From NCBI RefSeq assembly GCF_000020565.1, contig NC_010830.1, positions 848,001 to 912,000 on the forward strand: 64,000 bases of DNA. Direction: 5' to 3'. The first letter of the stretch is position 1, and every line of letters begins with the position of its first letter. The DNA is from Candidatus Amoebophilus asiaticus 5a2. Its GTDB lineage: Bacteria > Bacteroidota > Bacteroidia > Cytophagales > Amoebophilaceae. Both the position numbers and the translations under genes were made by a program. Below, one piece after another: positions 32,622 to 43,157 of this stretch. Below the pieces are notes generated by a model. That model saw nothing but the letters and a program-made list of their open reading frames with translations. It did not search any database and was not told the DNA's origin.

Positions 32622-33107
32622 ATGTTTAGCAAAAGCAAAAAAGAAATGCAAACAGTGGAAATTAACAATTCAAGCAACATTATAGGGAAAGGTACAACCT
32701 TAGAAGGAAGTTTAACCACTGCTGGTAATATTAGAATAGAAGGTAAGCTAATTGGCTCGGTTAATACTAAAGCCAAACTGGTACTAGGTACTACTTCATG
32801 GGTAAAGGGTAATATTGTAGCACAGAATGCTGAGGTAGCAGGGGAAGTACATGGAACTATTGAAGTATCTGGTTTGCTTATACTTAAACCTACGGCAGTT
32901 ATACAAGGAGACATTATTACCAATAAGTTAGTTTTTGAGGAAGGAGCTAAGTTTAATGGTAAATGTAAAATGGATACTGCTGAACAATCGGCTAATACCA
33001 AAGACACAGCAGCTACTTGGAAATCGAATGGTAGTTTTTTTAGTAAAAAATCAGAATCACAACCAGTAGAAAATGTTGCCAAAGAACCACAACAAGCTTC
33101 TTCATAA
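32622..33107 (+). CDS. Bactofilin (polymer-forming cytoskeletal protein)
   Basis: 161 residues. The bactofilin core (about 18-115) is a right-handed beta-helix visible as short repeats ending in Gly and Ile/Val: NIIGKGTTLEGSLTTAGNIR, then IEGKLIGSV and VAGEVHGTIEVSGLLIL. A charged disordered tail follows. Bactofilins polymerise without nucleotide and often recruit M23 peptidases to shape the wall. The 3' end overlaps the start of the AtpZ gene by 35 bp, so the three genes form one operon. Confidence 0.92.
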   Translation: MFSKSKKEMQTVEINNSSNIIGKGTTLEGSLTTAGNIRIEGKLIGSVNTKAKLVLGTTSWVKGNIVAQNAEVAGEVHGTIEVSGLLILKPTAVIQGDIITNKLVFEEGAKFNGKCKMDTAEQSANTKDTAATWKSNGSFFSKKSESQPVENVAKEPQQASS

Positions 33108-35229: not shown

Positions 35230-38106
35230 TTAAGTAGTTTGCCCCTTACCATCTAATACCATTTGTGGTTCATCCATAAGTGCTGGCCTAATTCTACGTA
35301 TCTCTACAGGAATAACGTAGATTTGTGTTAATCCTTTAATATCAGCCTCCCAGCTTGCAGATCCATAATGTGCATCTATAATTTGCTCATTCTCAGCTCT
35401 AGCTAGATCTTCTATATGCTTAGGCAAAAATATGTTAACAGGTTCTATTACTTCATAGCTATTTTTCTTAGCTGACAGTTGATCAACAGTGGTAAACATA
35501 AATTGTATAGCTGGCAATTTTTTAGCATAGTTAGGAATAAAAGGAATATCATATACTAAACTTGCATCTTCTACAATCAATCTAATAGGCTTATTGTCTT
35601 GATTTTTCTCCTGAATAGAACGTAGGCTATTATAAAGTAACTTTTGTATAAGTTTAGGATCGCACTGAATAGTTCTTTGCTGAGTTTGTAGCTGAACTGT
35701 AACCTTAGGACGCGGTTGTAAATCTATCATGTCTAAATTTTCTAGCGTAGCATCTAAAAAGTCTGTGAGATCTACTTTCTGCACATCTAAACGCATATGT
35801 TCTTTAAAACGATAGATAGTTTCTGCCAAATATTCTCCTGCTTGCTGCTGCTTAGCTAGAAGCGTTAACACATCTTCCATAAAAGCTCTTGCTTGTTCTG
35901 CACTTTGTACTTGTTTAGCAGCTTCTATGAGCTCTTTTCCCCTTTGATAAAGCAACATGAATCCCTCTACACAATCAGTAGACAAAGCATTTGAAAAGCG
36001 TTCTCGATACTCTAAAGCAATTTTTAGCTTTTCATCGCGTTCTGCTTGGAGAAGTTTAAGATACTCATTACGACTTGCTAGCTGCTTTTGTGCTTGTTTA
36101 TGTTTGAAAATGGCTAACAGGAAGCTACTTAAAAGCAATAGGCCATATAAGATTTTAAATTGTAATGTGCCAAAGTCATGGGAGGTAGATGGTGCTGAGG
36201 CGAATAGTTTAAAGATATTGGTAGCTATAATAACTCCTGATAAAACCATAGTAACAACGAAAGGCCAATCAAATAGTAAAAATGCCATAACGATGTTGAG
36301 CAGAAAGATCATGGTCTGGAAAGTATGAAAGCCACTCATCAGTACCAGCCAAGTGCCAACACCAAAAAGTACGTAAAAAACACTTAAAGGCCAAGCCCAA
36401 GTTATAAACCACTTATTCTTAAAAATAGGAGGCCATAAGGGGTAGGTTAATAAGCCTGTACTAATAAAGAGTACGCTTTGACCAATGATGTGGTAAAGCC
36501 TAGCGTGGTTGGTTTGTATTTCTTCGGGCACTGTATAAAAGGAAGCATAAGTAGCAGCAATTACATAGATTCCAAAAATGGTTAATAGGTATTCTTGATT
36601 AGGAAAAGTTTTTTGTAAGTATTGTACTAAGCTAAATTCTTTAAAATCTTTTTTAAACCTTTTCCAAGCTTTTCGTCTATTTTCTCTTGCCTCTAACAAA
36701 GGTTCTGGTTCCCGTACGCCTACCCAGCCGCCTGGTTGTTTAAGGATATAATGGCTACCAAGTAAACCTACTAGATTAGCGACAATACCAGGAATAATAC
36801 TATCGCTTCCCTTAAAAATTAAAGGCCAGCCTACTACGGTAATGAACCCCATACCCATGCTTATAAGTACGGACAATGTAGTACTCCTAAAACCTAAAAT
36901 AGCTAGTAATAAAGGTACTGTAACAACTGGCATATACAGGCTATTGGCAAATTGCAGTAAAGCTAATATACCTTTAAACTGTAAGGCAATCAGCAAAGCA
37001 AAAAGCCCTGAGAGTAAACAAAGGGATCTCGCAACAACTACCTCCTTTTCCTTGCTAAAGTTAAGTCCTAAAGGCTTCGCAATATCATTGGTTAACAAAA
37101 CAGCAGAAGCATTGAGATAAGAATCCGCCGTGGACATAGCAAGGGCTAACACACCTACACCAATTAGACCCCGTAACCCGCCTGTTGTATAATTATTGAT
37201 AATGTAATTAAAAAGCTTGTCAGGTTCTAAATTTGCATTGCTAGCCAATAACAAAATAGCTACCCAAGCTAAAAACAAACAAACTACTAAGCTGATGAGA
37301 GCTGCATAATTAAAGGATTTTTTTACTTGTGCTACATCTTTTGCCATACTGATACGTTGAAATATGACAGGATCCATAGCAGGAATTGTAAACCATAATA
37401 ACATGAATAGCGTATCGATGAATTTAGGATGCCAACCAATTACTTGTGACCAGCTAAAATTAGGGTTGGTATTAAGTAAGACTATAACTTGATGTGGGTC
37501 TTTGAGTTGATTCCAAATAACTAATGCGAGGATTGGAATAAAAGTGCCAAACGTAAAAAATTGTATTACATCAGTAAACGTAATGGCCCGTATACCACCT
37601 GAGACTGAGTATATAATGACCACTACAGACGCTATTACGGGCACCCATACACTTTCTGTAGCAAAAATTAAGCAGATTACTTTGCTAATTACTTTAAATT
37701 CCATAGCTACCAAAGTTATCACACTTAATATACCACTAATAGCTGTAATAATTTGTACAGATTTTCCATACAAATCTCCCATAGCTTCTGCTACAGAAAG
37801 GTTTTTTAAAAATTCTCGCATTCGCACTGCTAATAATCCCACTAACCACAAGCAGACAGAAGCACCACTTACTACTATAATGAAATAAAGACCGTCTCTG
37901 TATGTATGTTCTAATATTTCAAACACATACATACCTGCAATCCAGCTGACTACAATAGTAGCTGTTAATGTGGCTGTAGAAAAGTCTTTTCTGCCTACTG
38001 CATAATCACGTAGAGAAGTTACTCGACGGCTAGAAAAGAGGCCTATTGATAGGTTAATAACCAAAAATAAGCCGAAAATTATCATGTCTATGTTGAGTCC
38101 TAACAT
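35230..38106 (-). CDS. Na+/solute symporter fused to a degenerate histidine-kinase tail (copy 1)
   Basis: 958 residues. Residues 1-450 are a sodium:solute symporter (SSS, PutP-like) with about 13 membrane helices and family blocks such as VIYSVSGGIRAITFTDVIQF and ALAMSTADSYLNASAVLLTN. A second membrane part (about 505-665) is followed by a coiled coil and a region that aligns with kinase domains (about 690-940). The phosphorylated His of the H-box is absent (FSNALSTDCVEGF), the N-box is weak (LLYNSLRSIQ) and the glycine-rich ATP loops are missing; only an EQIIDAHYGSASWE block like the G2 region remains. Known relatives (CbrA type) are nutrient sensors. Here signalling by autophosphorylation looks lost. 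A paralogue is at 39580. Confidence 0.82.
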   Translation of the reverse strand: MLGLNIDMIIFGLFLVINLSIGLFSSRRVTSLRDYAVGRKDFSTATLTATIVVSWIAGMYVFEILEHTYRDGLYFIIVVSGASVCLWLVGLLAVRMREFLKNLSVAEAMGDLYGKSVQIITAISGILSVITLVAMEFKVISKVICLIFATESVWVPVIASVVVIIYSVSGGIRAITFTDVIQFFTFGTFIPILALVIWNQLKDPHQVIVLLNTNPNFSWSQVIGWHPKFIDTLFMLLWFTIPAMDPVIFQRISMAKDVAQVKKSFNYAALISLVVCLFLAWVAILLLASNANLEPDKLFNYIINNYTTGGLRGLIGVGVLALAMSTADSYLNASAVLLTNDIAKPLGLNFSKEKEVVVARSLCLLSGLFALLIALQFKGILALLQFANSLYMPVVTVPLLLAILGFRSTTLSVLISMGMGFITVVGWPLIFKGSDSIIPGIVANLVGLLGSHYILKQPGGWVGVREPEPLLEARENRRKAWKRFKKDFKEFSLVQYLQKTFPNQEYLLTIFGIYVIAATYASFYTVPEEIQTNHARLYHIIGQSVLFISTGLLTYPLWPPIFKNKWFITWAWPLSVFYVLFGVGTWLVLMSGFHTFQTMIFLLNIVMAFLLFDWPFVVTMVLSGVIIATNIFKLFASAPSTSHDFGTLQFKILYGLLLLSSFLLAIFKHKQAQKQLASRNEYLKLLQAERDEKLKIALEYRERFSNALSTDCVEGFMLLYQRGKELIEAAKQVQSAEQARAFMEDVLTLLAKQQQAGEYLAETIYRFKEHMRLDVQKVDLTDFLDATLENLDMIDLQPRPKVTVQLQTQQRTIQCDPKLIQKLLYNSLRSIQEKNQDNKPIRLIVEDASLVYDIPFIPNYAKKLPAIQFMFTTVDQLSAKKNSYEVIEPVNIFLPKHIEDLARAENEQIIDAHYGSASWEADIKGLTQIYVIPVEIRRIRPALMDEPQMVLDGKGQTT

Positions 38107-38539
38107 AATGTATAGCCTGTATGTATTCGTAAAAATTCTTAGTTTCTAATAAATTGTAATAAATAAGGATACAAGAAAAGTAGTTTAGGGTATTTAAACA
38201 ATAAAAAACGTGCTTTTTTGCTTAAAATATGTACTGAAAATTTGCAGAATAGTACCAAGTAAATGAAAATTAGTAAATGAATATGCTGATTGCCTCATTG
38301 GAAAAATAATTTTTGACTATGCCAGTTAGTAATACTTTATAGTTATTGAGGAAGAGTTTAATGATAATTTTAAGCTTTTAACATCAAATTCTCGACGCAC
38401 TGCGCATAGAATTATCATGGACTCATTGCCGCCATTTAGGGGTCGCGCTGGGAAAAGAAAAATATCCTCCGGCTTAGCTATACTAGTTTAATTTATAACA
38501 GTTATATTAATAAATCCAACCAGATATAATTGTATAACT
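38107..38539. other. Intergenic region upstream of symporter copy 1 and DUF488 gene
   Basis: 433 bp between divergent genes. A short G+C-richer patch near 38395-38465 looks like inserted foreign remnant but codes for nothing I recognise. It must hold the promoters of both neighbours. Confidence 0.35.
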
Positions 38540-38944
38540 ATGAATCAAGAGCTAGCAAACAATAGAATTCATAATAAGATTGCTATCTGCAGAGTTTATG
38601 AAATACCCACTTACAAAGAAGGTATATGGGTACTTGTGGATAGGTTATGGCCACGGGGGATTAAAAAGGATGATCTCATCATTGATCTATGGTTAAAGGA
38701 AATTGCACCCAGTACTTCTTTAAGAAAATGGTTTAATCATGATCCTGCCAAGTGGTTTGATTTTGCACAACGCTATATGAAGGAATTACAAGGTAAACAA
38801 GCGCTTATCGAATCCATTCTTGAAAAAGCAAACCATTCTCCTATCACACTACTTTATGCTGCAAAAGATACCCAACATAATCATGCGCTTGTTCTTCAAG
38901 CAGTTTTACAATCCTGGCCTAAGTTTCCTAAATTTAACGGATAG
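38540..38944 (+). CDS. DUF488 family protein (YeaO-like)
   Basis: 134 residues, full length. The family signature is complete: ICRVYEIP, VLVDRLWPRGIKKDDL near 33-48, WLKEIAPSTSLRKWFNHDP and FAQRYMKEL, then a C-terminal ITLLYAAKD strand. The Trp/Arg-rich pocket suggests nucleic-acid or small-ligand binding, but the role is unknown. It is the only gene between the two symporter-sensor paralogues and runs in the opposite direction. Confidence 0.88.
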   Translation: MNQELANNRIHNKIAICRVYEIPTYKEGIWVLVDRLWPRGIKKDDLIIDLWLKEIAPSTSLRKWFNHDPAKWFDFAQRYMKELQGKQALIESILEKANHSPITLLYAAKDTQHNHALVLQAVLQSWPKFPKFNG

Positions 38945-39205
38945 AAGTATTCTTCTTATCACAAGGTAGGACATGAAATACCATAATATGCATATACTTT
39001 CCCCGCACTACCTAAGCGTTGGTAGAGCTCTAGCCACTTAAGTCTAAGTTTTACCTTACTATTCATAATTCATTAAGCAATTCTAAGTTATAAATAAGTT
39101 TCCTTGATGAGTTTGTATACAGTTGATCGTACAATTTCAATTTGCTTGGCTATTTTGCTCAAGGGATAAAATGGTCGGTTTACTCTAATCGCTACTTTGC
39201 TCCAC

Positions 39206-39500
39206 TTACAACAAAAAGCTGTTCGCTTCGTCGATTATTTCGTTACTAAAACTCTTCAGATACGTCTGCGTAATTTTCTTACCCTTGTATCCGATCGCTT
39301 CACTCATCACCCCGGTAGAGATACTACTTTGTCTCAGCATGGCCGCATAGGTATGACGCCCTACATAGATTGTCAGGTGAACGAGGTACTTCAGCCGCTT
39401 CGGCTAATTCTTTGAGCGCATCATTCACTTGTCTGAGTATTCGATTAATACGGTTTGAAATTTGCTGAGGCGTGAACTACTCATGCTTATTTAAAATAGG
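39206..39500 (-). pseudogene. C-terminal remnant of a tyrosine recombinase (integrase)
   Basis: Reading leftward, the sequence gives QISNRINRILRQVNDALKEL, then after a frameshift near 39385 HLTIYVGRHTYAAMLRQSSI, EAIGYKGKKITQTYLKSF and NEIIDEANSFLL to the stop at 39206. The Arg-His block and the Tyr in QTYL are those of Bacteroidota phage/transposon integrases; the usual His of the GH block is Tyr. The N-terminal two thirds are missing. This patch is visibly richer in G+C and CG dinucleotides than its surroundings, which points to a foreign, now dead element inserted between the two symporter genes. Confidence 0.7.
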
Positions 39501-39579
39501 AAAAACAAAATCATCTTTTTCTGCGCCTCTCTGGTTCCTATATTTTTCTAATAGCTCCAAGGCTGGTACTAGCAGTTTG

Positions 39580-42441
39580 TTACACTACTTCATCTAATAC
39601 CTTTTTGCTTTCATCTATAATTGTTGGCCGAATTTTTCTTAGTGCCACTGGAATGATGTAGATCTGGGTGATATCTTTATTTTCAGTTTCGCAACTTGCA
39701 TATCCATAATGAGCTTCTATAATTCGTTGGTTTTCTTCGCTAGGTACATTTTCTATATGCTTGGGTAAAAATATATGGACAGTTTCTAATGCATCATGGT
39801 TATTAGTTGTACCCTTTGCTGGTTGCTCAATAGTCGTAAGTATAAATTGTATAGCTGATATTTCTTTATTATAGTTAGGAATAAATGGCATCTCATAAAC
39901 TAAAGTGGCATCTTTTACCAAAAGGGTAATAAGCTTATTGGCATGATTTTTTGCCTGTATAGTTTGCAAAGTATTGTATAACAGCTTTTGAATTTGTACA
40001 GGATCTATTTCTAATTCTTGATAGTGTGTAAGCTGTTGTAAAGTAATTTTTGGTTGGGCTTGTATATTTATCTTATCTAAATTTTCTAGCGCAGTATTTA
40101 GGAAATTTGCTAGGTTAACTTTCTCTACATTTAAGCGTAGATAATTTTTAAAAGGAAAAATGGTTTGTGCTAAGTATTCGCTAGCTTGTTGCTGTTTAGC
40201 TAAAAGTAGTACCGCTTCATTTATTAGGTCCTTATATGATGAAGTTATTTCTGTTGGTTTAAAAGACGTCCAAAGTATTTTGCTTTGTTGGTACAACCAA
40301 TTAAAGCCTTCTACACAATTGATAGCTAAAGTATGCATAAACCGTTCCCGGTGTTGTAATGCTTCCCGTAAGTTGATAGTGCGCTTAGCTTGAAGAATAT
40401 TAAGGGCTTGATTGTGGCTTACTAGCTTTCCTTGTGCTTGCTGATACTTAAATAAAGCTATGAAATTACTTGCTAGTAGCAGACCATATAATATTTTGAA
40501 TCGTAAGGTACCGAAGTCGTCAGGAAGGATAGGTACTTGTGCATATATTTTAAAAATATAAGTAGCAGTTGTTACACCTATAATGACCATAATGCTTACT
40601 AGATGCCAAGGAAGTAATAAGAATCCCATCACCACATTCAGAAGAAAGATCATAGTTTGGAAAGTATGAAAGCCACTCATCAGTACTAGCCAAGTACCCA
40701 CTGCAAAGAGTACATAAAAAACACTCAAAGGCCAGGCCCAGGTTATAAACCACTTGTTCTTAAAAATAGGAGGCCATAGGGGATAGGTTAGCAAGCCTGT
40801 GCTAATAAATAGTACGCTTTGACCAATAATATGATAAAGCTTGGCATAATTGGCTTGTATCTCTTCTGGTACTGTATAAAAGGAAGCATAAGTAGCAGCA
40901 ATGACATAGATTCCAAAAATGGTCAATAGATAATCTTGATTAGGTAAGCTCTTTTGCAGATACTGTACTAAGCTAAACTCTTTAAAGTCTTTTTTAAATT
41001 GGTTCCAAGCTTTGCGTCTATTCTCTCTTGCTTCTAACAAAGGTTCTGGTTCGCGTATACCTACCCAACCACCTGGTTGTTTGAGAATATAATGGCTACC
41101 TAGTAATCCTATTAAGTTAGCCATGATTCCTGGAAGAATACCATGGCTTTCTTTAATAATAAAAGGCCAACCGAGTGTCGTTCCAAGCCCCCCAGCCATC
41201 CCTATTAATACAGCTAATGTGCTACTTCTAAATCCGAAAATAGCCATTAACAAGGGTACTGTAACAACCGGCATATACAGGCTATTGGCAAATTGCAGTA
41301 ATGACAAGATTCCTTTGAATTGCAAAGCAATAAGTAAGGCAAATATACCCGACAAGCCGCAAAAAACCCTGGCAGCCAGCACTTCATTTTTGAATTTTAT
41401 GCCCAAGGGCTTGGCAATATCATTGGTTAATAAAACAGCAGAAGCATTCAGGTAAGAATCAGCCGTAGACATAGCCAGAGCTAAAACACCTATGCCTATC
41501 AACCCACGTAAGCCAGCTGACGTGTAATTATAAATAATGTGTTCGACAAGCTTGTCAGCTTCCAAATTTGGATTGTTAGCTAATAATAAAATAGCTATCC
41601 AAGCTAAAAACAAACACACGACTAAGCTAATGAGACCAGCATAGCTAAAAGATTCTTTTATTTGCTGTATATCCCGCGCCATGCTAATCCGCTGAAAAAT
41701 AACAGGATCCATAGCAGGGATGAGAAACCATAGCATCATTGCCAAAGCATCTAAAAATTTAGGATCCCATCCTATTACGTGAGACCAGCTAAAATTAGGA
41801 TGGGTATTAAGCAAGGTTATTACCTGATTTGGGTCTTTTAGCTGATTCCAGATGACTAGTGCCAAGATAGGAATAAACGTACCAAATGTAAAAAACTGTA
41901 TTACATCTGTAAAAGTAACTGCACGGATACCTCCAGAAACTGAGTACACAATTACCACGACAGCAGCAATTACAGGCGTCCAGATACTTTCAGTATTAAA
42001 TATCAAGCTAATGATTCGGCTAATTACATGAAATTCCATCGCTACTATTGTCAATACGCTTAAAACCCCACTAATAGCTGTAATAGTTTGTGCAGTTTTA
42101 CCGTAAATGCCTCCCATAGCTTCTGCGACGGAGATGTTTTTTAAAAACTCCTGCATGCGTACAGCTAATAACCCAACAATAACCAAGCAGGTGCATGCAC
42201 CAGTGATAGCTATGATAAAATATAGTCCATCTGTATAGGTATGCCCTAGCGTTTCAAAAACGTACCAACTACCAACCCAGCTAACTACAATACTAGCTGT
42301 TAAGGTAGCTGTAGAAAAATCTTTTCTGCCTATTGCATAATCTTGTAGAGAGGTTACTCGGCGGCTAGAGAAAAGTCCTATGACTAGGTTAATACCTAGA
42401 AATAAGACGAGAATTAACATGTCTATATTCAAACCTAGCAT
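39580..42441 (-). CDS. Na+/solute symporter fused to a degenerate histidine-kinase tail (copy 2)
   Basis: 953 residues, paralogue of the protein at 35230-38106. The symporter part and second membrane part are nearly the same over long stretches (for example ALVIWNQLKDP and GFHTFQTMIFLL). The last 300 residues differ much more (FMHTLAINCVEGFNWLYQ where the H-box should be, LLYNTLQTIQAKN for the N-box, RIIEAHYGYASCE for G2). As in copy 1 the phospho-His and ATP-binding glycines are absent. Conservation of the membrane parts with drift in the tail suggests selection on transport or sensing rather than kinase activity. Substrate unknown. Confidence 0.82.
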   Translation of the reverse strand: MLGLNIDMLILVLFLGINLVIGLFSSRRVTSLQDYAIGRKDFSTATLTASIVVSWVGSWYVFETLGHTYTDGLYFIIAITGACTCLVIVGLLAVRMQEFLKNISVAEAMGGIYGKTAQTITAISGVLSVLTIVAMEFHVISRIISLIFNTESIWTPVIAAVVVIVYSVSGGIRAVTFTDVIQFFTFGTFIPILALVIWNQLKDPNQVITLLNTHPNFSWSHVIGWDPKFLDALAMMLWFLIPAMDPVIFQRISMARDIQQIKESFSYAGLISLVVCLFLAWIAILLLANNPNLEADKLVEHIIYNYTSAGLRGLIGIGVLALAMSTADSYLNASAVLLTNDIAKPLGIKFKNEVLAARVFCGLSGIFALLIALQFKGILSLLQFANSLYMPVVTVPLLMAIFGFRSSTLAVLIGMAGGLGTTLGWPFIIKESHGILPGIMANLIGLLGSHYILKQPGGWVGIREPEPLLEARENRRKAWNQFKKDFKEFSLVQYLQKSLPNQDYLLTIFGIYVIAATYASFYTVPEEIQANYAKLYHIIGQSVLFISTGLLTYPLWPPIFKNKWFITWAWPLSVFYVLFAVGTWLVLMSGFHTFQTMIFLLNVVMGFLLLPWHLVSIMVIIGVTTATYIFKIYAQVPILPDDFGTLRFKILYGLLLASNFIALFKYQQAQGKLVSHNQALNILQAKRTINLREALQHRERFMHTLAINCVEGFNWLYQQSKILWTSFKPTEITSSYKDLINEAVLLLAKQQQASEYLAQTIFPFKNYLRLNVEKVNLANFLNTALENLDKINIQAQPKITLQQLTHYQELEIDPVQIQKLLYNTLQTIQAKNHANKLITLLVKDATLVYEMPFIPNYNKEISAIQFILTTIEQPAKGTTNNHDALETVHIFLPKHIENVPSEENQRIIEAHYGYASCETENKDITQIYIIPVALRKIRPTIIDESKKVLDEVV

Positions 42442-42563: not shown

Positions 42564-43157
42564 ATGAAAGGATTTAAAATATCTGAAAAAGGTAAGCAAT
42601 TGCTAGATCTTCTAAAAGGTGAGCCGCACATAGACTTAAAAGTTATGGCACGTGGCATAGAATATGCTGCCACTTTTCATCATGGACAGATGCGGAAATC
42701 TGGCGAGCCTTTTTACTATCATCCTATAGAAGTAGCTTGTATTCTTTTACCTTATACTACGGATCAAGATACACTTATTGCTGCTCTATTACATGATACG
42801 GTAGAAGATACAACACTTGCACTTACACAAATAGCCTTTATGTTTAATCCTACCATAGCACATCTAGTGGCTGGTGTAACTAAATTTAATGAGGCGTGGC
42901 GTAGGCATTTTTTAGAAAATTATGAAATGCATTATAAATTGCTACCGCGACAAGAAACTGATCTTAAAATTATTCAAATAAAAATAGCAGACCGCACACA
43001 CAACATGCGTACCATACAATTTCATCCTTCCCTTGCCAAACAAAAAAGAATAGCCGAAGAGACGCTAGACGTATTTTTACCCATAGCACAAGGTATAGGA
43101 TTAGATCCATTGGTAAAAGAGTTGGAAGAATTGTCTGTAGCTATCCTCAAGAAATAA
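42564..43157 (+). CDS. SpoT-like HD hydrolase without synthetase domain
   Basis: 197 residues. The HD hydrolase domain of RelA/SpoT proteins is complete: His53 in YYHPIEVA, His77-Asp78 and Glu81-Asp82 in LLHDTVEDT, and Asp143 in KIADRTHNMRT. The synthetase, TGS and ACT domains are absent, so it is a small alarmone hydrolase type that would break down (p)ppGpp. Rickettsias carry similar short spoT genes. Together with the DksA-like protein at 22589 it shows that part of stringent control is kept. It diverges from symporter copy 2. Confidence 0.87.
   Translation: MKGFKISEKGKQLLDLLKGEPHIDLKVMARGIEYAATFHHGQMRKSGEPFYYHPIEVACILLPYTTDQDTLIAALLHDTVEDTTLALTQIAFMFNPTIAHLVAGVTKFNEAWRRHFLENYEMHYKLLPRQETDLKIIQIKIADRTHNMRTIQFHPSLAKQKRIAEETLDVFLPIAQGIGLDPLVKELEELSVAILKK

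Follow-up and report, generated by a model that had tools for sequence, protein, structure and literature searches.

Architecture of the Gene Pair

The window analyzed in this study covers 64,000 nucleotides (bases 848001-912000) of the one-contig genome of Candidatus Amoebophilus asiaticus 5a2 (1,884,364 bases), which belongs to the Amoebophilaceae within the Bacteroidota. Two paralogous genes on its minus strand, located at 35230-38106 and 39580-42441, encode proteins of 958 and 953 amino acids. Both consist of a sodium/solute symporter (SSS) domain, a second membrane part of the CqsS sensor type and a pseudo-histidine kinase tail. A separate gene on the plus strand (42564-43157) codes for a predicted stand-alone SpoT-type HD hydrolase of 197 amino acids (HD_4, 100.4 bits) and is a candidate partner of the pair. 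It is divergent from the gene of the 953 amino acid protein, 122 bp apart.

A sequence-only reading of this DNA had described two proteins joining a symporter, a second membrane part and a kinase-like tail, and this layout was confirmed by the open reading frames, the SSF profile and alignment. In the 958 amino acid protein, the SSS domain takes up residues 1-450 (36757-38106) and is matched by SSF over residues 36-417 with 39.7 bits. It is followed by the CqsS-type sensor at approximately residues 496-655 (36142-36621), placed by hhalign of the copies from this genome (probability 97.8). DHp-like helices without the H-box histidine (approximately residues 656-770; 35797-36141) and a dead GHKL (CA-like) domain (approximately residues 771-940; 35287-35796) were delimited by alignment and model. 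The corresponding parts of the 953 amino acid protein are the SSS domain at 41098-42441 (SSF 38 bits, residues 36-418), the sensor at 40483-40962 (alignment and hhalign) and the tail at 39628-40482 (alignment). Both SSF scores exceed the curated cut-off of 22.8; by this profile the proteins are members of the SSS/SLC5 family, with predicted sodium-coupled transport. A sequence search of the PDB with the whole 958 amino acid protein gave weak matches, mostly to SLC5 transporters. Up to an E-value of 1, the Pfam profiles HisKA, HATPase_c and PAS did not match either protein, nor was there any profile match with an intact phospho-acceptor and ATP site. A STAC domain was likewise not matched by Pfam in the pair (a profile scan, with no STAC alignment), and the CqsS-like sensor occupies its position.

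Loss of Kinase Motifs and Predicted Fold of the Tail

The tails were aligned with an intact reference kinase, the Megaira plasmid protein L035 (HisKA 47 bits, HATPase_c 84 bits). At the position of the phospho-acceptor histidine, the 958 amino acid protein carries a threonine and the 953 amino acid protein an isoleucine, and the G1 and G2 glycine boxes are both absent, as the sequence-only reading had stated. Neither DxGxG nor GxG[IL][GAS] strings occur in any of 53 dead tails, whereas DxGxG is present in all seven intact comparators and the G2 string GxG[IL][GAS] in six of them. A misreading of the kinase motifs was ruled out, as the intact comparators display what the tails have lost. A single G1 glycine is left in many of the 53 tails, but in neither window protein, and an H-box-like string was flagged by motif search in three of them, away from the aligned position. 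The N-box asparagine is retained in 44/53 and the G1 aspartate in 42/53 tails; the window pair retains both. For five kinases of genome G219, which represents another genus of the family, H-box and G1 were read from the motif search and the sequences, as the alignment misplaces them.

Despite these losses, the tail is predicted to be still folded as a DHp-CA unit. Three intact kinase tails are still recognized by a profile built from 14 dead ones (probability 91, E 1e-6). The AlphaFold model of the 958 amino acid protein's tail comprises a helical hairpin and a GHKL fold (mean predicted local distance difference test [pLDDT] 76, predicted template modeling score [pTM] 0.59), and its best matches among solved structures are histidine kinases, including RetS and DivL (Foldseek E 2.5e-10). 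The CA part of the model matches kinase CA domains with Z 15.2 and a root-mean-square deviation of 2.5 over 131 residues.

The Second Membrane Part

A sensor profile built from 15 copies of the A. asiaticus genome was compared with seven CqsS-like proteins by hhalign and matched them with a probability of 97.8 (E 9.7e-13). Seven copies from G219 gave a probability of 99.2 (E 2.2e-19), while 12 control pairings stayed at or below 1.3. The Vibrio comparator can be taken as CqsS itself, because the gene of an alpha-hydroxyketone autoinducer synthase (NF005526, 697 bits) adjoins it. Judged by these profiles, the second membrane part and the autoinducer sensor CqsS are homologues, although the ligand of the symbiont sensors need not be an autoinducer.

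HD Hydrolase Domains as Probable Output in the Same Genome

The genome contains 19 symporter-domain loci matched by SSF. Eleven of these encode proteins of 1,105-1,170 amino acids, in which the same tail is followed by an HD domain of the SpoT type; four of the eleven were run against Pfam. Two are identical, namely the 1,108 amino acid proteins of loci L022 (870-4196) and L023 (880-4206), approximately 14.5 kb apart. At two further loci (L030 and L033) the sensor-tail-HD part occurs without a symporter, and separate symporter genes adjoin. A RelA/SpoT-type HD behind the same tail is thereby found at 13 paralogue loci, of which 12 are distinct. In total, 16 HD_4 matches were obtained, eleven fused to SSS, two in sensor-tail proteins without SSS, two stand-alone and one in Rel, which also holds the only RelA_SpoT synthetase match of the genome.

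Nine catalytic HD residues, numbered after Rel of Streptococcus equisimilis, are intact in the window HD (42564-43157) and in each of the 12 distinct HDs of receptors. By its residues and the HD_4 match, the window HD is of the SpoT or small alarmone hydrolase type, and (p)ppGpp hydrolysis is predicted for it. In a wider HD alignment all nine residues are intact in 47/55 rows, some rows being one gene fetched twice; the eight others are L055, the Rel of this genome, L096 and five Cardinium-like sequences. A second HD set gave 35/41 intact rows, the reference row counted. L055 (1450-1998), the second stand-alone HD of the genome, has a tyrosine in place of a metal-binding histidine and appears to be a decaying copy, with transposase-like frames recognized by eye nearby.

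The model of tail and HD of a relative reached a mean pLDDT of 82. Its HD matches SpoT with Z 24.2 over 187 residues, its tail matches kinase CA domains, and MESH1 and a (p)ppApp hydrolase are also among the structural matches of the HD.

In the alignment, the two window proteins end at the linker, and the C-terminal HD is absent from both chains. The only significant HD similarity inside the window is the separate gene. A recent truncation of the pair was rejected for this reason and because the orthologues in a sister species are HD-less, too. Three receiver domains were detected in the genome, all inside hybrid kinases with frames of 2,276-2,307 amino acids (L009-L011, L016-L018).

Orthologues and Selection

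The sister genome G147 encodes a tandem of three HD-less relatives (L222). The 958 amino acid protein pairs with C103_954 (support 100/93) and the 953 amino acid protein with C103_893 (99/89). Since each has its own orthologue, both genes predate the species split, so that the earlier description as two independent copies holds. In the third protein, C103_961, the symporter is similar (80%), whereas sensor and tail are different (22-31%).

The claim that the membrane parts are much better conserved than the tails is correct for the two paralogues, whose identity amounts to 78% in the SSS domain, 82% in the second membrane part, 47% in the tail helices and 54% in the Bergerat part. It does not extend to orthologues, as the values for the 958 amino acid protein and C103_954 are 75, 79, 84, and 69%. 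The tails have therefore diverged between the copies and not decayed. In the comparison with C103_954, where dS is near saturation, the ratio of nonsynonymous to synonymous substitution rates (dN/dS) lies at 0.06-0.11 in all four segments, membrane and tail alike, with approximately 0.06 in the tail. The orthologue of the window HD is identical in 175/197 residues (dN/dS 0.039).

Co-divergence of Modules and Split Forms

Module distances were compared across 39 proteins carrying all four parts. The distance correlation (rho) was 0.88 for symporter and sensor and 0.75 for tail and HD, but 0.37-0.51 for the four cross pairs, with permuted maxima of 0.20-0.31. The excess of the tail-HD over the symporter-HD correlation had a bootstrap 5-95% range of 0.18 to 0.46. 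Input (symporter and sensor) and output (pseudokinase and HD) are thus shuffled as two units, which fits the unequal conservation of membrane parts and tails remarked on before.

In the SSS-sensor-kinase proteins of G219, both H-box strings and glycine boxes are present. Four of these proteins were scanned and gave 55-66 bits for HATPase_c and no HisKA match up to an E-value of 1. On its contig 535 (L161), a live-kinase gene and an adhesin-like gene are followed by a divergent stand-alone HD and an HD-less sensor-pseudokinase. This contig looks like an intermediate, in which live kinase, split HD and dead kinase occur together. In the first trees, the window HD grouped with the G219 HD (97/86) and the window tails with the G219 tail (99/93). 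After the row sets had been changed by adding rows and by dropping others (CardA and L096_1810 from the HD set; L088_2, CardB, L096_1810, and CardA from the tail set), the support was 94/32 and 83/95, respectively. A firm clade with the split genes of G219 was dropped for this reason, and the link is suggestive only. In the Cardinium-like genome G122, only a few bases lie between an HD-less SSS-sensor-tail frame of 965 amino acids and a separate HD frame after it (L202, 979-3873 and 3879-4406); this is either a second split form or a frameshift.

Loss of the Rel Hydrolase Site in the Amoebophilaceae

The distribution of these domains was surveyed in 21 Amoebophilaceae genomes, which are related to one another. 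The sensor-tail profile matches 18/21 of them and, outside the family, 13/270 genomes at E 2e-6 or worse; as at most six candidates were scored per genome, this gives presence and not copy number. HD_4 and the synthetase domain are each matched in 18/21 genomes. The Rel alignment comprised 23 family sequences and the best 30 loci from the other families of the order, where 57/59 outgroup genomes matched. Eight hydrolase residues were counted, leaving out the column labelled R43, which is the neighboring residue.

All eight residues are intact in the 30 outgroup Rels and in the Rel of the family member G194. The remaining 22 of the 23 family Rels are degenerate at the hydrolase site: 19 are alignable and have lost at least four of the eight residues, and three (G038a, G215a, and G165) have no HD region. 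Six synthetase residues are unchanged in 22/23 sequences, with one change in G206. A degenerate Rel hydrolase was found in 16/21 genomes, all of which have other HD_4 matches, from 3 in G206 to 44 in G038, while the single HD_4 match of G194 lies inside its own intact Rel. G165 retains a synthetase remnant and has no HD match, G094 and G182 have neither, and G219 has one HD but no synthetase match. The complementary occurrence of Rel loss and other HDs is a strong pattern, not a statistical proof. By its residues, the Rel of A. asiaticus looks synthetase-only. Another hydrolase is to be expected in this genome, because the sole synthetase has retained its residues but not the hydrolase site of the same protein.

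The 44 HD_4 matches of G038, a Cardinium-like genome of 1.2 Mb on one contig (L146, L156), lie in many cases in frames of approximately 1,150-1,200 amino acids, and a large part of this genome may consist of receptor-type genes. In G194, an SSS-sensor protein (L170, 711-2564) with a weak HATPase_c match of 29 bits is possibly losing its kinase.

Comparison With Known Systems

Intact rickettsial forms were represented by three Megaira plasmid records (L035-L037). These SLC5-histidine kinases share the order of SSS domain, second membrane part and DHp/CA with the window pair, with approximately 32% identity over 97-98% of the length. Their kinase is intact and they carry no HD, whereas in the Amoebophilaceae the kinase is dead and the HD occurs in the family. 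The pair belongs to a Bacteroidota lineage, and the rickettsial relatives found, to which the sequence-only reading had pointed, are intact kinases. That reading had also suggested a comparison with CbrA-type proteins. CbrA is an SLC5-STAC-PAS-kinase of Pseudomonas and resembles the pair in the fusion of an SLC5 transporter to a kinase-type module, but it has a PAS domain and an active kinase; here neither was matched and the second membrane part is CqsS-like. CqsS has the homologous membrane sensor upstream of a kinase-type module, yet no transporter, and it possesses HATPase_c and a receiver, whereas the pair has neither an active kinase nor a receiver. RetS and DivL are deviant histidine kinases with unusual roles. 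They resemble the tails as kinase folds signaling outside normal phosphotransfer, but target other signaling proteins, while the fused output in the present family is a hydrolase.

The expansion of spoT-like genes and its link to symporters is already published. A. asiaticus has been listed as "Rel[HS] + rickSpo[H] expansion" with 15 RelA/SpoT homologs (Atkinson 2011, PMC3153485), and rickSpo proteins were described as an HD-only SpoT expansion in Rickettsiales and A. asiaticus (PMC3153485). There they appear as small hydrolases beside a "Rel[HS]"; in the present analysis, the majority form the output of membrane receptors, and Rel has a degenerate hydrolase site. For Amoebophilus, "18 homologs of spoT ... 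sodium glucose cotransporter" were noted (PMC6232779), SLC5-kinase fusions are spread among rickettsiae, Amoebophilus and Cardinium (PMC5615194), and HATPase-SpoT hydrolase fusions occur in Orientia (PMC10732058). The 19 putative sodium/solute symporters reported for A. asiaticus (PMC8831229) equal the number of SSF matches found here; 10/19 were down early and 10/19 up at 72-144 h, and the accessible portion of that study mentions neither SpoT nor ppGpp. In the literature searched, which was mostly open-access, accessible in part and did not include the A. asiaticus genome paper, no prior report of the pseudokinase, the CqsS-type sensor or the Rel hydrolase loss in Amoebophilaceae was found.

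Proposed Control of Alarmone Hydrolysis by Receptors

Taken together, the window pair represents HD-less members of an Amoebophilaceae family with the usual order SSS symporter, CqsS-type sensor, pseudo-histidine kinase and SpoT-type HD, in which transporters or receptors probably control (p)ppGpp hydrolysis through the pseudokinase and without phosphotransfer. Signaling without phosphotransfer, as the sequence-only reading had supposed, is well supported by the family-wide loss of the motifs, the predicted retention of the fold, purifying selection and the restriction of receivers to hybrid kinases of approximately 2,300 amino acids. The pair may also sense or import a host nutrient, the other suggestion of that reading. 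More tentatively, and with somewhat less than even confidence, these proteins can be seen as one-component receptors, in which a transporter and a quorum-type sensor govern alarmone hydrolysis via a dead kinase. Most of the family would then have moved the off-switch of the stringent response from Rel to a bank of receptors, and the HD-less pair would be a split switch with a free HD.

In the proposed mechanism, binding of a putative ligand or the transport state would be read by the symporter and the CqsS-type sensor and alter the sensor. From there, a change of conformation or dimer state would be relayed by the DHp-like helices together with the dead GHKL domain, for which phosphotransfer is unnecessary, and the output would be the activity of the predicted (p)ppGpp hydrolase. 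An active HD and a low alarmone level may correspond to the fed state, the sign being a guess. Receptors and some stand-alone HDs would have taken over alarmone hydrolysis from Rel, leaving the synthetase. The window pair would most likely act via an HD in trans, either the divergent stand-alone HD or that of a fused paralogue by hetero-oligomerization.

If this is true, sensing acts on the growth-control nucleotide within one protein, and a kinase and regulator in between are unnecessary. This would concern obligate symbionts with few classical two-component systems, which still must match their growth to the host supply. It would jointly explain the expansion of spoT-like genes in Amoebophilus and Cardinium, the many symporters and the loss of the Rel hydrolase site, and it would provide an example of a histidine kinase converted into a transducer that works purely mechanically.

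Several observations weigh against this interpretation. An intact Rel hydrolase was found in one family genome only, and the genomes are related. Five Cardinium-like receptor HDs carry E81Q or E81R plus D82N, and the HD of L096 has lost most of its catalytic site, so that inactive copies may exist among the receptor HDs. The HD-less C103_961 falls outside the grouping of the window tails in the tree, and the links to G219 weakened with altered row sets. In the sister genome, the orthologue of the window HD lies on another contig than those of the pair and keeps flippase and bactofilin neighbors. Over the entire tail, Foldseek gives low TM-scores (0.3-0.4 by query), since the placement of the two subdomains differs. 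Finally, the signaling direction, the (p)ppGpp substrate, the ligand and the proposed partner of the window pair are what we infer.

Alternative Explanations

Among the alternatives, the one that survives best, although it is unlikely, regards the HD-less pair as inhibitors or decoys, which form mixed dimers with HD-bearing paralogues and are independent of the stand-alone HD. DHp-type helices generally dimerize in kinases, HD-less and HD-bearing relatives lie side by side in L033 and L088, and linkage between the pair and the HD gene is missing in the sister genome; the tail of the 958 amino acid protein is, however, only 22-33% identical to those of the fused paralogues.

Two further explanations appear improbable. 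The tail could be a nucleotide sensor, whose dead CA domain binds ATP, ADP or an alarmone and tunes the transporter or the HD. The N-box asparagine and G1 aspartate kept by most tails and by the window pair are in line with this, but the glycines of G2 (the lid) are lost and the retained residues may be structural. Alternatively, the HD could hydrolyze another substrate than (p)ppGpp, e.g., NADPH as in MESH1, or (p)ppApp. Small HD hydrolases are known as promiscuous (PMC9765508) and both types of enzyme were among the structural matches; SpoT and Rel are nevertheless the closest ones, and with a sole synthetase that has lost its own hydrolase site, another hydrolase is expected.

It is still less probable that the proteins are plain nutrient symporters with a vestigial tail heading for loss: the kinase motifs are all gone, the tails are less conserved than the membrane parts between the two paralogues, and the genes are regarded as nutrient transporters in the literature (PMC8831229), but a dN/dS of approximately 0.06 and 69-84% identity between orthologues, the predicted folding of the tail, the co-divergence of the tails with an HD whose catalytic residues persist and the sensor-tail match in 18/21 genomes speak against it. 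Equally improbable is an expansion mainly by gene mobility (RAGE-like cargo, repeats) with little physiological role, for which related genes on an amplified element of Orientia (PMC10732058), SSS/HD fragments called MITE (miniature inverted-repeat transposable element) candidates in a Cardinium (PMC12039267) and the plasmid copies can be cited, since it leaves aside purifying selection, the intact HD residues in 47/55 rows, the regulated expression reported (PMC8831229) and the matching loss of the Rel hydrolase.

Gene Neighborhood

The promoter and terminator scan was no better than shuffles (29 vs. 31.3 and 3 vs. 5.8). That the pair and the HD gene were already neighbors ancestrally is not supported, as they lie on different contigs in G147, and because of this missing linkage the neighborhood in the window alone is no proof of a joint function. 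The bactofilin gene in L205 was recognized by eye from its likeness to that of the window (32622-33107). Bactofilin and HD genes are close together in the sister genome and approximately 9.4 kb apart in the window, where they are separated by the receptor pair and by a gene of the DUF488 family (38540-38944; best match "Inactive DUF488-N3 subclade").

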